Source: a virus. From it: 20,358 bases of DNA. The DNA is taken from IMG/VR virus record IMGVR_UViG_3300031566_000472, positions 1 through 20,358 of that record. One strand, written 5' to 3'. The position numbers and the translations under genes are program-made. This document shows positions 2,631 to 20,358 of this stretch, in pieces. The notes below the pieces were generated by a model. The model ran no database searches and was not told the DNA's origin. It saw only the letters and a program-made list of their open reading frames with translations. How positions within the stretch are numbered: the first letter of the stretch is position 1; every line of letters begins with the position of its first letter.

Positions 2631-3998
2631 TTAACCAATTTTCGTGATTTTATTGAAGTTTTTCCCAACATATTGCTTTGTTTTAAATTTCCCGCCATCT
2701 TCAAGTGTTTCTTTTATCTCGTCAAATAATTTTTTACCGTCGGTGATACAATAATCAAGCAAAAATCCATCATATAAATACATAATAAGACTGGTCTTAT
2801 ACGGCTCTAAAATTTGATGTATCTTTTCTATAATTAATATATTCCTCTCGGTTTCATAATTCTGTAAATAATAATTAAATAACTTGTTGGAACTCATGCT
2901 GTCCAGATTGTCAAGGTATATTTTCTTGCCTGATACGTTGGTTCTGATATATCCGTCTCTCTGATAATCGTTCCACATTTTTGTAATAAATTCTTGTGTC
3001 TTTGCGAAGAATGGTATAGCTTTTGCAATAGTATCATGAATACCACCATATAATATATTAAATGATACAATCTTTGATTCATCATAATCTTCTTCTGTCA
3101 ATTCTTCTTTTACAAAGTATTGTTTTCCAAGATACTCATGTATTGATGTGTCGGGAGGAAAACTATATCCAATTAAATCTGCAACAAGATTTAAATGATA
3201 TGCATCATAGTCAAAATAGAATAACCTGCCATCGTCTCCAAATCTGGATTCTATAAATTCTCTTTCGCCGTTGTCTTTATTTAATGCTGCAAAATTGAGG
3301 TTTCCAAATCTATTTGATGGTCTTCCTGTTGAAGTATATATATTGTAATCTGTATAAACATAATTATTACTTATGTGCATTTTGTATTGTGGGTGATATT
3401 TCAATAGTATATCAGAATTTACATAAATGCCATTCTTTTCTATTTTATGCAAACATTCTATTGTCTTGTTATTTAAGAAATCAAATGACCGTGTATCACA
3501 CTCCAAATTGGAATTAATAATAAATTCTATGTTATCAGAATATGGAACAAGCCTTTCTTTAATCTTTAATATGGGAATAGAATCATATACATCACCGGCA
3601 GTTTCCATCATGTTTCTACTAATTAAAAACATTTCACCTTTACTATACTTCTGTTGTATCTCTGTAATCTTATTTGTATTCAGATAAAATAGTATATTGA
3701 CATCTATTAGATTTTCCATTGGAGATATATTTAAGAATTGCTTCTTATCTATAACATACTTCTTATTGTTTGTGTGTGATAAATAATCCAACAATTTAAA
3801 ATCCAAATTGTTGGCTTCACTATGCGTGAATGGAAGGATATAATACTTTGGTGAATTTAAAATTTTTACGAATAATAAGCATAGTTTATTATTTAAAGCA
3901 TTACGCTCATTATCAGATAAAATTGGTATAAGGATTACGCTATTATCCTTATACAAATCAAAAAATTGTTGGAATTCTTCTCGTGTTTCTATTATCAT
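2631..3998 (-). CDS. Compact divergent family A DNA polymerase, exonuclease region degenerate
   Basis: The C-terminal half carries the family A palm and fingers motifs. TGRPSNRFGNLNF (224-236) matches the conserved TGRLSS..PNLQN region. FDYDAYHLNLVADL (262-275) is motif A, with catalytic Asp263. SKIVSFNILYGG (308-319) is the O-helix, with Lys309, Phe313, Tyr317 and Gly318. MYLYDGFLLD (406-415) is motif C, with Asp410. Residues 1-165 look like a decayed 3'-5' exonuclease fold (VILIPIL; KKYVIDKKQFL; NLIDVNILFYL), lacking the DxE pair that binds metal. No 5' nuclease is present, so at 455 aa it is short for the family. Several usual residues are replaced: the Klenow Glu710 position is His268, Arg754 is Tyr305 and His881-Asp-Glu is Tyr-Asp-Gly. 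The start ATG follows AAAGG at 11 bases, a long spacing. It could be the replicative, a repair or a defective polymerase. Confidence 0.88.
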   Translation of the reverse strand: MIIETREEFQQFFDLYKDNSVILIPILSDNERNALNNKLCLLFVKILNSPKYYILPFTHSEANNLDFKLLDYLSHTNNKKYVIDKKQFLNISPMENLIDVNILFYLNTNKITEIQQKYSKGEMFLISRNMMETAGDVYDSIPILKIKERLVPYSDNIEFIINSNLECDTRSFDFLNNKTIECLHKIEKNGIYVNSDILLKYHPQYKMHISNNYVYTDYNIYTSTGRPSNRFGNLNFAALNKDNGEREFIESRFGDDGRLFYFDYDAYHLNLVADLIGYSFPPDTSIHEYLGKQYFVKEELTEEDYDESKIVSFNILYGGIHDTIAKAIPFFAKTQEFITKMWNDYQRDGYIRTNVSGKKIYLDNLDSMSSNKLFNYYLQNYETERNILIIEKIHQILEPYKTSLIMYLYDGFLLDYCITDGKKLFDEIKETLEDGGKFKTKQYVGKNFNKITKIG

Positions 3999-14425: not shown

Positions 14426-14707
14426 TTATTTCTTATCTTGAATATTAAATAAAAATTTTAAAAATTCTTTATTTTTTAAAAGGTCTTTAGCTATTACTTC
14501 ACTTTGGTTTTTTATATCTTCTGCTGCTTGTAATAATTCTGGATTTTCTTGTAATGCCTTTTTTGCAGCTTCCAAATCATTTTTTATGATAAACATATAA
14601 AATTTTGATATTAAATTTCCTATTATTCCACCAGACTTTCCACTTTCTTTAATTAATGCTTTTGTAATTTCTTCATTTACAATTTTATATATTTTTTTAT
14701 CATCCAT
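14426..14707 (-). CDS. Hypothetical protein, 93 aa, directly upstream of the tape measure
   Basis: I do not recognise the family. The protein is almost entirely helical and charged: MDDKKIYKIVNEEITKALIKE, a short hydrophobic stretch GGIIGNLISKFYMFII, then ENPELLQAAEDIKNQ and a Lys-rich end. The start has a good ribosome-binding site (AAAGGAACTCACA then ATG). It is the first gene after the terminator at 14766-14793 and promoter-like site 4, and it ends two bases before the tape-measure ATG, so the two are probably one operon with coupled translation. A small helical protein here could be a tape-measure chaperone; this is inferred from position. Confidence 0.7.
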   Translation of the reverse strand: MDDKKIYKIVNEEITKALIKESGKSGGIIGNLISKFYMFIIKNDLEAAKKALQENPELLQAAEDIKNQSEVIAKDLLKNKEFLKFLFNIQDKK

Positions 14708-16441: not shown

Positions 16442-16933
16442 TTAATATTCAAGTACTGCGTAATCGTATGCGAGAGTTAATTCTGCCATAACAACATCTG
16501 CTCCTGATGACCAATCTAAGTCACCAAAACTTGCTGCTACAATTAAAGCACCCTTAATTACCCACTGCTCTACAACATCACCAACCGGACCTAAAAGGTT
16601 AAGAGTCAAATCTTTTTTGTAGAAATCTGCATAGCCTCTACGACCTGTTAAAGACTCGTGTCCAAGTCTTACCCATTCCATTACCGCCTGTGCAGCTGAA
16701 GGAACAATTGGGTCATAAAGTGAAATGGTAATGTCCTGCCATTCTCCTTTACCTTGCAATTTTCTCTTGATGTTGATATGGTCAATTGTTATTGTTTCAA
16801 AATTTATTGATGGTCTGTTTGCCATTTTTACCATATAAGCTGGAACATCATTAATATACATAATAAATCTATTTTTTACCTTTGGTTCAAACGGTGTAAA
16901 AAACATTTCATTAGCGTCAAGTATTTTTGCCAT
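16442..16933 (-). CDS. 19: Tail tube protein (T4 gp19-like)
   Basis: This 163-aa protein matches the T4-like tail-tube family in length and pattern. It starts MAKILDANEMFFTPFEPKV, then NRFIMYINDVPAYMVKMANRP (residues 21-41), SINFETITIDHINIKRKLQGK and EWQDITISLYDPI. The end is the strand-rich ADVVMAELTLAYDYAVLEY. Subunits stack as hexameric rings to form the inner tube through which DNA passes. The start is clear: CTGGAGAAACAG before ATG. Two promoter-like motifs (16972-16980 and 17034-17042) precede it in the largest gene-free gap of this block, which would suit one of the most abundant virion proteins. The sheath gene that usually precedes the tube is not in the window; the gene directly upstream is the 994-aa modular protein. 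Confidence 0.92.
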   Translation of the reverse strand: MAKILDANEMFFTPFEPKVKNRFIMYINDVPAYMVKMANRPSINFETITIDHINIKRKLQGKGEWQDITISLYDPIVPSAAQAVMEWVRLGHESLTGRRGYADFYKKDLTLNLLGPVGDVVEQWVIKGALIVAASFGDLDWSSGADVVMAELTLAYDYAVLEY

Positions 16934-17066: not shown

Positions 17067-20051
17067 TTACTCATTTTTAAGGACATTAAATGTCTCTTTT
17101 TTACCGCCAGGATAAGAATACATAAAAATCGATGAAGATGTCAATATAGGCATCTTTAAGTTGCTTACATATTTCTCTCCTTCGCCTGGTTTTACATATG
17201 CTATCGTTACATGTGGTTTATAGTCTTTATGTGTCTCGGTATATTCGAAATTCTGTCTTACTATCTCATTTAACTTATTTAACATTTTAGATTGTACATC
17301 AAATTTCACAACATCAAACATCTTTGTTGAAAATATATCTATCTTAGTTAGTTTAATTGAAATTGGTCTTTTTAATGTATTCAACATTTTCTTTATCCTC
17401 TCAACATCAACTGCTTCACTAAACCCATATAATATGGTTACATGTGGTTCAAATTCGTAACCAAAATCTTGCTGTGCATTATTATATATATCTTCTTCTT
17501 TAACATATTTTTCAACATAATTTTTCCACCATGGAAATTCCAATTTCAACATCAAACATCCGAATTCTGTTTGTATTTCATTTATTTTATTTTCACTTGT
17601 ATGTGTTAATTGATATTGTTGGGCCGGAGAAAGTGTAGATGTCCTTTTTTTAGAACCAACTCCTGTATAAACATCTGGTTTTTTTGCCATTGGACTTAAA
17701 GTGTGTAATTCTTTTCTTTTATTTAACGCATCATAATATAAAGAAGGATTTTTCATTATATTTGGCTTCCAATCAAAAACTGGAATAAAATACGATTCTT
17801 CATAATCGTCATCTCTAAGCCATTTCATAGAATCTTCATAATAGTCCGATGTAACTTTAGGAATATCTATTTTCCAAGACGAATTAATTTTAATATTTTT
17901 ATCATTATATTTGTTTATACTATCTATCATATCCAAAAATTGTTGCTTTGTATCTGTATAATCCCATAAAGATATAATTTTTTCATTCACCCATACCCTG
18001 CCAGAAATTGAACCTCCTTTCTTAGAATAAATTCTAATTGTTTGAATCCTATCATGAAATTGTCCAAACTCTGCAAAATAAGTTTTTTGAGATTCAATTC
18101 TATAAATAAAAGGTATAGCATCTTTATCTATTGCACTCAGCTTTTTCTGTTTTCCATTATCAATATAACGAACTTCATCTGCCCATTCTTTTATATTTTC
18201 ACTTGTTGATTTCATTTGGTGCCTCTGGGTTGTTGTTAGTTTTGCTGGTAATTTTTTTGAACCTATGCCAGGCGATACATCCGAACTTTTTGCAACGGGA
18301 GATAACATATGTTTCAATTGCATTGATTTCTTTTTTCGTTTTGATTTTGGAGCATTGGATATCAACCCCGCATCATATTTATCTATAGGTATATAAACTG
18401 ATTTGGTAGCCTTGCCGGAATACATAGCCGCATCATAATTTTTAACATGTAATTTTCCTCCCCGGTATTTAATATATTTTTTAGATAATAATTCGCTTGC
18501 GATTTCTATCTTCCAACTGCTATTTATATTCAAATCTGGATATTCATTATTCAAATCTTTTATTATCTTTTGTAATCTACTCTTACTTTCGGGATATCCC
18601 CAAAATGAAATCGCCTTTTGGTCAGCAAAAACACGACCAGCATAATTGTTAGTTAAGTCCGAATCATCGAATGTATCTATACCAATAAATCTATGTGCAG
18701 TTTCATATGACGATTTTAATTCGCCATCTACATACCCAAATGCTATTGAATTTTTGGTAGGATATCCATATATTCTTCCTTTATATTTAATACCATCTGC
18801 CCACTCATTCATGCTTTCTGATGTGGATTTCATTTGGTGCCTCTGCGTTGCTGTCATATCAACAGGTCTCTTTTTAGAACCTATATCACCAACTACATCA
18901 GATTTTTTTGCAAACGGACTTCTCATGTGCTGTTGCATTTGAGTATCCTTTTCTTTTTTATATTCGCTTGGATTTTTCATTATATCTGGAGTCCAATAAA
19001 ATATTGGAATCAAATAAGATTCTATTTCTCTGAACCCCATTGCCTTAGCTTCTCTCGAAGCATCATTAGCTATACTTGTCCAGTTTTTTCCCATAAAATT
19101 TATTGCTACCATTGGTATATCCATTTTCCAAGATGCATCTATTTTTCCTAATTTATTTTTTTGCATCTCATCACTTAATTTTTTTAACATTGCATTATAC
19201 ATTGCCTTAGTGTCTGGATATTCCCATACTGAAAGTACCTTTTCTTTTGTCCAAATTCTTCCTGGTATATAAACTTTATGTGTGAAATTTCCTTTTGGAA
19301 CACTACTATGTGTGTTTGATTCTTCTCCAAAACTTACAGAATAATTTTTTATATTATAAAAAAATGGATATGAACCTGGGTCTTCATTATCTAAATCTAA
19401 TTCACCACTACTTACCATATCTGCCCATTCATTTAAATGGTCTTTTTTAGGTGTAGTTCCAACTGGTCCATACATATGTTTCCATTCATATCTGGTATCA
19501 CCCTTTGTGAGCCAACCTTCGTTTTGTAATTCTTTCATTGCGGTATCATAACTATCTTTGCCAAAAAATTCGCTGATGTAATTTTTATAGCCATGCCAAT
19601 TATTTAGATTTACCGAACGACTTGGCATCTGTATAAAAATATCTCTTATTGCTGCCTTTGCATATTCTTTTATATCATTATCTGGTAATGAAACTATTGC
19701 TCCATATGATTCTGTTAGTTTGGCGAGCCTTCTCCTAATAATAGTTTCTGCTATTGCCCAATCCGGAATAGACTCTCCGGCATTCTTATCATTAATTATA
19801 TCATATACAAATTCAATTCTACTTTTATAGAAATTCATTCCATTTTTATATAATGCTTTTACTTGACCTTTCACAGCTTTATACAAAGATGTGTCTCTTT
19901 CATGTTTATCTTCCAAAAATTGTAATAATTCTTTCAATTCTGGGATTTCCATATTCCATGCAATTTTTAAAAATTCAACATCATTCATTTTATTCATTTC
20001 AATGAATTTATCATTTTTCATATCTTCTGATATTAAATTTTTAAGTTTCAT
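17067..20051 (-). CDS. Modular 994-aa protein: three repeat modules plus C-terminal 2H phosphoesterase
   Basis: The C-terminal ~165 residues are a 2H phosphoesterase (LigT / 2'-5' RNA ligase-like fold): EPHVTILYGF (His870, Thr872) and KPHVTIAYV (His947, Thr949) are the two HxT motifs, 77 residues apart. Relatives act on 2',3'-cyclic or 2'-5'/3'-5'-linked nucleotides, including the phage anti-CBASS enzyme Acb1. Residues 10-208 form a helical region. Residues 209-416, 417-622 and 623-825 are three diverged copies of one module, each with a (G/A)R(I/V)(W/F) strand, a SVWEYPDTK-like segment and an ASWKMDIP-like strand. Each module ends with a linker (SPxAKxxDV...GSKK...QRHQ...STSE) and begins after (L/M/I)xE-WAD. 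The start MKLKNLISE resembles T4 capsid-targeting peptides, so it may be a packaged, protease-processed protein; this is inferred. Start: AGGA six bases before ATG. Confidence 0.85.
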   Translation of the reverse strand: MKLKNLISEDMKNDKFIEMNKMNDVEFLKIAWNMEIPELKELLQFLEDKHERDTSLYKAVKGQVKALYKNGMNFYKSRIEFVYDIINDKNAGESIPDWAIAETIIRRRLAKLTESYGAIVSLPDNDIKEYAKAAIRDIFIQMPSRSVNLNNWHGYKNYISEFFGKDSYDTAMKELQNEGWLTKGDTRYEWKHMYGPVGTTPKKDHLNEWADMVSSGELDLDNEDPGSYPFFYNIKNYSVSFGEESNTHSSVPKGNFTHKVYIPGRIWTKEKVLSVWEYPDTKAMYNAMLKKLSDEMQKNKLGKIDASWKMDIPMVAINFMGKNWTSIANDASREAKAMGFREIESYLIPIFYWTPDIMKNPSEYKKEKDTQMQQHMRSPFAKKSDVVGDIGSKKRPVDMTATQRHQMKSTSESMNEWADGIKYKGRIYGYPTKNSIAFGYVDGELKSSYETAHRFIGIDTFDDSDLTNNYAGRVFADQKAISFWGYPESKSRLQKIIKDLNNEYPDLNINSSWKIEIASELLSKKYIKYRGGKLHVKNYDAAMYSGKATKSVYIPIDKYDAGLISNAPKSKRKKKSMQLKHMLSPVAKSSDVSPGIGSKKLPAKLTTTQRHQMKSTSENIKEWADEVRYIDNGKQKKLSAIDKDAIPFIYRIESQKTYFAEFGQFHDRIQTIRIYSKKGGSISGRVWVNEKIISLWDYTDTKQQFLDMIDSINKYNDKNIKINSSWKIDIPKVTSDYYEDSMKWLRDDDYEESYFIPVFDWKPNIMKNPSLYYDALNKRKELHTLSPMAKKPDVYTGVGSKKRTSTLSPAQQYQLTHTSENKINEIQTEFGCLMLKLEFPWWKNYVEKYVKEEDIYNNAQQDFGYEFEPHVTILYGFSEAVDVERIKKMLNTLKRPISIKLTKIDIFSTKMFDVVKFDVQSKMLNKLNEIVRQNFEYTETHKDYKPHVTIAYVKPGEGEKYVSNLKMPILTSSSIFMYSYPGGKKETFNVLKNE
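17571..17699 (-). repeat. Linker repeat copy 3 in the 994-aa protein
   Basis: Residues 785-827: LSPMAKKPDVYTGVGSKKR, then LSPAQQYQLTHTSENKINE. It joins the third module to the 2H domain and is the most diverged of the three copies (QQYQLTHTSE in place of QRHQMKSTSE; no WAD after the closing INE). Confidence 0.8.
18174..18305 (-). repeat. Linker repeat copy 2 in the 994-aa protein
   Basis: Residues 583-626: LSPVAKSSDVSPGIGSKKLP, then TTTQRHQMKSTSENIKEWADE. It shares a 20-base identical stretch (plus strand GATTTCATTTGGTGCCTCTG, 18208-18227) with copy 1, which lies 618 bases (206 codons) away. That is one module length. Confidence 0.85.
18789..18923 (-). repeat. Linker repeat copy 1 in the 994-aa protein
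   Basis: Residues 377-421: RSPFAKKSDVVGDIGSKKRP, then ATQRHQMKSTSESMNEWADG. The 20 bases at 18826-18845 are identical to those in copy 2, suggesting that the modules arose by tandem duplication and that this joint is under tight constraint or recent exchange. Confidence 0.85.
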
Positions 20052-20059
20052 ACTAATTC

Positions 20060-20358
20060 CTAATTAATCACAAAAGTCACATCATATCTATCTAATGGGT
20101 CTTTAATACTTCCTGCACCTGCGGCTGTAATAATCACGTTTAATTTATCTGGTCTTTGATTTTGGTTGGTAAAAGGAATTTCACACCACCAAATTTTTCT
20201 TGCTGGAACTCCACCTTCTTTTTGATATTCCGTTTTTTCTATAGAAATTGGAATCATTCCACGGTGTAAATCGCCTATGATACCATTAATTGGTTGCCAA
20301 GCATCATCACTGAAAAATCCTCTTAACTTTTCATATACCTTAAAATTCTTTGTAATAT
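20060..20358 (-). CDS. Hypothetical virion-region protein, C-terminal part (cut by window edge)
   Basis: The frame is open from the right edge to the TAG at 20062-20060, so about 98 C-terminal residues are visible. They include FKVYEKLRGFFSDDAWQPING, IIGDLHRGMIPISIE, then ARKIWWCEIPF and KLNVIITAAGAG, ending DPLDRYDVTFVIN. An internal ATG at 20257 has no good ribosome-binding site and the reading frame upstream of it is equally protein-like, so I treat the gene as continuing beyond the window. I do not recognise the family. The mix of aromatic strands and the final beta-rich segment would suit a structural protein. The stop lies eight bases before the ATG of the 994-aa gene, and the ribosome-binding site of that gene overlaps this stop. 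Confidence 0.65.
   Translation of the reverse strand, partial: ITKNFKVYEKLRGFFSDDAWQPINGIIGDLHRGMIPISIEKTEYQKEGGVPARKIWWCEIPFTNQNQRPDKLNVIITAAGAGSIKDPLDRYDVTFVIN

Follow-up and report, generated by a model that had tools for sequence, protein, structure and literature searches.

In phage T4, the proteins IPI, IPII, IPIII and Alt carry capsid-targeting sequences that are cut by gp21 (PMC9026906), and IP1-3 block GmrSD enzymes (PMC12373910). The inner head proteins of SPN3US and phiKZ have long propeptides with several protease motifs, which are cut at multiple positions, and this cargo is ejected (PMC5694885, PMC10052503). Phage 2H domains in injected proteins were proposed in 2017 to degrade defence nucleotides or to act as RNases (Iyer et al., PMC5512222), and the phage 2H enzyme Acb1 has since been found to degrade the nucleotides of the cyclic oligonucleotide-based antiphage signalling system (CBASS; PMC9117128). 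Here we analyse a gene in a viral DNA stretch of 20,358 nucleotides (IMG/VR record IMGVR_UViG_3300031566_000472, positions 1 to 20,358; hereafter "the window"). With a rough probability of 0.58, we read this gene as encoding an injected-cargo polyprotein of a T4-related ("far T4") phage that would be cut by the prohead protease and deliver a 2H enzyme.

The gene is an open reading frame (ORF) of 994 codons plus stop with an ATG start on the minus strand, running from 20051 to 17067; all features of the protein are given on that strand. It opens with MKLKNLISE (residues 1-9; 20025-20051), a capsid-targeting-like leader of the T4 type, about ten residues long and ending in (I/L)xE. With hydrophobic residues at P7, P4 and P3 and glutamate at P1, its spacing corresponds to the determinants at residues 4, 7, 8 and 10 of T4 IPIII (PMC9026906), and the same pattern is found on proteins of relatives. 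A helical region rich in [LIM]xE triplets follows (10-208; 19428-20024), then three homologous modules of about 205 residues, namely M1 (209-416; 18804-19427), M2 (417-622; 18186-18803) and M3 (623-825; 17577-18185), and a C-terminal 2H phosphoesterase domain of 169 residues (826-994; 17070-17576) with both catalytic HxT motifs, each of them HVT (870-872, 17436-17444; 947-949, 17205-17213). When the modules were compared with each other by blastp, the E-values were 5e-39 for M1/M3, 1e-27 for M1/M2 and 3e-21 for M2/M3. All four borders fall exactly behind a putative cleavage site: LNE (206-208; 19428-19436), MNE (414-416; 18804-18812) and IKE (620-622; 18186-18194), each with WAD next, and INE (823-825; 17577-17585), with IQTE and the 2H core next. 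A preliminary description of this DNA had given the same start, module limits, borders and trailing 2H domain, but named no strand. Of the regions in the full-length predicted model, the 2H domain alone is confident from end to end; each of the four borders lies in a stretch with a predicted local distance difference test score (pLDDT) below 50.

Structure prediction of the modules, a check that the preliminary description had put forward, gave no confident fold: Foldseek returned no match at E 0.001 or better, and the best structural match, gelsolin (VIA Z 3.6, root-mean-square deviation 4.6, 94 aligned residues), was judged not meaningful. Weak SENP-like matches were dropped, and a Pfam match of M1 to Cyto_heme_lyase (4e-4, below the cut-off) was judged spurious. 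Among viral contigs, module relatives were found in L002 and L003 only; named phages and genome contigs held none, and named phages also gave no match to region 1-208 or to the 125-residue protein encoded next to it.

The protein resembles the T4 internal head proteins in its short leader with the same hydrophobic and glutamate spacing, in the S77-type protease (here in relatives) and as suspected injected anti-defence cargo. Those proteins, however, are single-domain or Alt, and none of them is a polyprotein of repeats with a site at each of its borders. Polyvalent proteins (Iyer et al. 2017, PMC5512222) are likewise multidomain, thought to be packaged and injected, and include 2H domains, but their processing is credited to peptidase domains of their own, whereas none was seen here and the prohead protease is proposed instead. 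They are also recognized by several disparate activities, and the window protein has one enzyme and a repeated module that lacks a confident fold or function. T4 Acb1 (PMC9117128) is an HxT/HxT 2H enzyme too and is the best PDB sequence profile match, but it stands alone, and the window 2H domain scores below the Pfam Acb1 cut-off. SPN3US and phiKZ share the long N-terminal region with several protease motifs; their motif is (A/S/G)xE and its cutting was seen by mass spectrometry, whereas here the motif is (L/I/M)xE and its cutting is predicted.

Overall, the protein is not unusually rich in [LIM]xE triplets (13 versus 11.5 in shuffles), and the gene lies among tail genes. Both points would suit a late tail-associated or cytoplasmic protein in which the leader and the LxE triplets are products of chance in a Glu-rich sequence. 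The placement of the triplets argues against such an origin: no triplet lies inside the window's modules, against an expectation of 4.7 (P 0.005), and nine lie in residues 1-208, against an expectation of 3.6 (P 0.002). The preliminary description had cautioned that LxE and IxE triplets also occur outside the borders. In part, the three E-WAD borders copy each other and so are not independent; counted conservatively as two independent borders with a tolerance of 3 residues to either side, the coincidence of sites and borders has a chance probability of about 0.008.

The same 994-residue gene is present on contig L002, which reaches further upstream (tblastn 100%; a single S-to-W difference was noticed in module 3). 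A misassembly is therefore an unlikely source of the three modules. The ortholog in L003 has 799 residues and two modules, with the borders INE-WAD, LRE-WAD and LNE-IQTE. The number of modules thus varies while the border motif stays, and across both proteins P3 is I, L or M, P2 is N, K or R and P1 is E every time. Identity between the window and L003 is 89% for residues 1-208, 52% for module 1, 34-42% for the other module pairs, 63% for the 2H domain and 96% for the tail tube protein. Region 1-208 has the look of a long, conserved propeptide rather than of a cargo module. By analogy with SPN3US, the stretch from residue 10 to 208 may be a multiply cut long propeptide that touches conserved phage machinery, the modules diverging like effectors. 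Packaging and injection could also proceed with removal of the leader alone, giving an unsplit multidomain polyvalent protein whose repeats are binding arms for the 2H domain. The virion RNA polymerase of N4 is packaged unprocessed (PMC5512222), and E-WAD could be a structural motif copied along with the module. We consider an unsplit protein unlikely, as the border site is kept despite the changed module number, ahead of 2H domains in unrelated fusions (see below), and where TSE and the site are one residue further apart (TSENKINE versus TSENIKE).

True N-termini have leader-like starts two to three times as often as internal Met controls at capsid loci (13.8 versus 4.3%), 2H loci (10.7 versus 5.8%) and tail loci (4.4 versus 1.7%), and in relatives the leader-bearing proteins include the capsid protein itself and a likely prohead-core protein. 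The regular expression for leaders yields false positives, such as the thymidylate synthase starts in L098 and L108, and single leaders therefore prove nothing. In the major capsid sequences of relatives, a (V/I)xE site is followed by A, V or S, and its E is invariant in 80 of 80. Microcystis phage Mel-JY01, the nearest named relative (tube 66% identical), has this site at residue 60 of its capsid protein, close to the 65-residue propeptide of T4 gp23 (PMC9026906), and encodes a gp21-type S77 protease (6e-30) together with a Gp23-type capsid protein. An S77 protease match was obtained in 10/10 named phage records tested, seven of them over the cut-off. The false positives and a leader background of 2-6% lend the chance explanation some room, but the statistics of the capsid site, the leaders, the triplet placement, the pre-2H sites and the SAM lyases, together with the finding that capsid and probable core proteins start with these leaders too, make it quite improbable. 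Two clusters of leader-bearing genes were also observed. L266 (383-4720) has seven consecutive leader ORFs of the MIKLKSLLKE type, then a leader-bearing P-loop kinase-like protein and an S-adenosylmethionine (SAM) lyase; L191 (2087-7946) has eight ORFs within 6 kb near capsid genes, with near-identical starts of the MKKSELKQIIKEE type and otherwise differing sequences.

A scan with eight 2H sequences yielded 79 loci. In 17 of the 24 clusters of fusion proteins, [LIM][NKTSR]E lies at most 22 residues ahead of the 2H core (3.5 expected; reached in 0 of 200000 simulations). As this strict class and the 22-residue window were fixed after the sequences had been viewed, the looser site classes are the safer figures, with 22 (7.3 expected) and 24 (9.9 expected) of the clusters. 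Stand-alone 2H proteins carry a [LIM][NKTSR]E leader in 25 of 43 cases versus 6.9 in shuffles. SAM lyases behave alike: at 14 of 15 loci, and also in Mel-JY01, their conserved start, (S/A)S(L/I/M), comes immediately after the E of an (L/I/F)xE triplet. L127 has a row of leader-bearing proteins: the 2H enzyme, three of unknown kind and a SAM lyase (5e-12). The preliminary description had treated the window polyprotein as a single odd protein; the pattern is shared by many phages and kinds of cargo. The Mel-JY01 SAM lyase (L004, 37896-39182) has the leader MQFKQYILGE, a second region after an IINE triplet and a C-terminal leader-like stretch, MKITREQLKEKIRIIVKRVLNE. Among the 2H proteins, the 1605-residue product of L151 (2003-6820) starts, by eye, with a nicotinamide mononucleotide (NMN) adenylyltransferase-like domain, possibly a cargo that restores NAD.

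The 2H domain of the preliminary description is real: it matches PF13563 (4.7e-8, above the cut-off) and phrog_755 (4e-9), both HxT motifs are intact, and its fold matches CPDase and LigT, which places it in the 2H superfamily. The comparison with the Acb1 and LigT families gave a divided answer. Among PDB sequence profiles, Acb1 matches best (2.5e-4; CPDase 0.06), but the Pfam Acb1 family PF23474 is hit at 6.6e-5 with 23.1 bits, short of its curated cut-off of 27, and Foldseek prefers CPDase (2e-5) and LigT, then the poxvirus cyclic GMP-AMP phosphodiesterase (5e-4) and Acb1 (6.7e-3). The predicted fold does not decide between the candidate substrates. We favour a cyclic oligonucleotide, at about even odds. 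We regard as less probable an enzyme that is packaged and processed in the same way but has RNA as its substrate, either acting on 2',3'-cyclic phosphate ends or serving as an RNase, and that repairs or cuts tRNA at an early stage of infection. Such a role would fit the only Pfam family above its cut-off, 2'-5' RNA ligase, and the best Foldseek matches. It would also fit fusions of 2H to a CCA-type nucleotidyltransferase (L110, L117 and L126, by eye), which hint at RNA repair, and a single protein in L013 (3947-5263) that joins a leader, 2H and a DEDD-type exonuclease, the latter two being separated by a stretch that has ISE and INE triplets. It is at odds with the preference of the PDB sequence profile for Acb1, and Iyer et al. 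(PMC5512222) saw no link between such phage 2H domains and RNA ligases.

In the polyprotein reading, the precursor would be brought into the assembling prohead by its leader, probably together with the conserved helical region 10-208, and there a gp21-type S77 protease would cut after (L/I/M)xE, removing the leader, separating the modules and the 2H enzyme and probably shredding region 10-208. The pieces would remain in the head and enter the cell together with the DNA; the modules would be fast-diverging effectors, and the 2H enzyme would most likely destroy a defence nucleotide of the CBASS or type III CRISPR kind, or else process RNA ends. Packaging and cleavage at (L/I/M)xE, already proposed in the preliminary description, draw considerable sequence support from the leaders across the lineage, the capsid site, the S77 protease of relatives and the sites ahead of 2H domains; we infer both, as well as injection, from these sequence patterns. 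Several observations weigh against this reading, besides a possibly structural E-WAD and the late choice of the strict site class. The depletion in module interiors is weak in L003 (2 versus 4.4), and the S77 match is absent in 11/30 records with relatives, several of which are fragments. The protease and capsid genes of the window's phage do not lie within its 20 kb. The stand-alone 2H proteins L111, L112 and L155 have no leader at all, which implies that the 2H enzyme can also be made after infection, and the Foldseek order puts CPDase and LigT above Acb1.

The 2H domain, the targeting leader and the S77 protease are ordinary parts. On sequence evidence, the repeat polyprotein with a protease-like site at each border is unusual, as is the recurring pre-2H site across unrelated fusions. 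What is new relative to the 2017 proposal of injected multidomain 2H proteins is the splitting of a cargo polyprotein by the prohead protease, of which we found no account in the literature searched, where coverage was partial and included few subscription journals. We tentatively suggest, at slightly less than even odds, that the prohead protease of a tailed DNA phage serves as a polyprotein protease, that one gene gives rise to several injected effectors, and that a leader with (L/I/M)xE forms a widespread cargo code in T4-related and huge phages. If so, tailed phages would be capable of a polyprotein strategy, and injected proteins could be read off the sequence alone: a leader and a three-residue site would predict head-loaded proteins and expose large sets of early effectors, for example in L266 and L191. 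Whether given counter-defence enzymes (2H, SAM lyase, ADP-ribosyltransferase (ART)-like) come in with the DNA could then also be tested directly.

In the window, the polyprotein gene is followed on the same strand by the tail tube protein gp19 (16442-16933; PF06841, phrog_4542) and preceded by the C-terminal part of the 125-residue leader protein (20060-20356). This neighbour is whole in L002, where the gene order is sheath, a 96-residue ORF, three leader-like proteins (MKKSDIKNMIKEE, MNKLQKLIKEE and MKLKTLIPEE, the last being the neighbour), polyprotein and tube. In L003 it forms the rear part of a fusion with a second leader protein and retains its own leader, now internal, with the putative site (SLKNLVPE-EF versus MKLKTLIPE-EF). 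Leader proteins lie between sheath and tube in L002, L003, L007 and L074; in the huge phage LR756508, one of the leader proteins of this interval has a KptA/ART family match (6e-5, below the cut-off). In Mel-JY01 and Flavobacterium phage immuto, no genes are annotated between sheath and tube. The T4 late promoter TATAAATA occurs 7 times versus 6.7 expected, and none lies ahead of the polyprotein gene. Two more minus-strand ORFs of the window have leader-like starts (1128-2591, MVDFNIEEILLEAS; 14426-14707, MDDKKIYKIVNEE). A third minus-strand ORF, among baseplate genes (2631-3998), is DNA polymerase-like by eye, and RM378 has an annotated DNA polymerase close to its tail genes.
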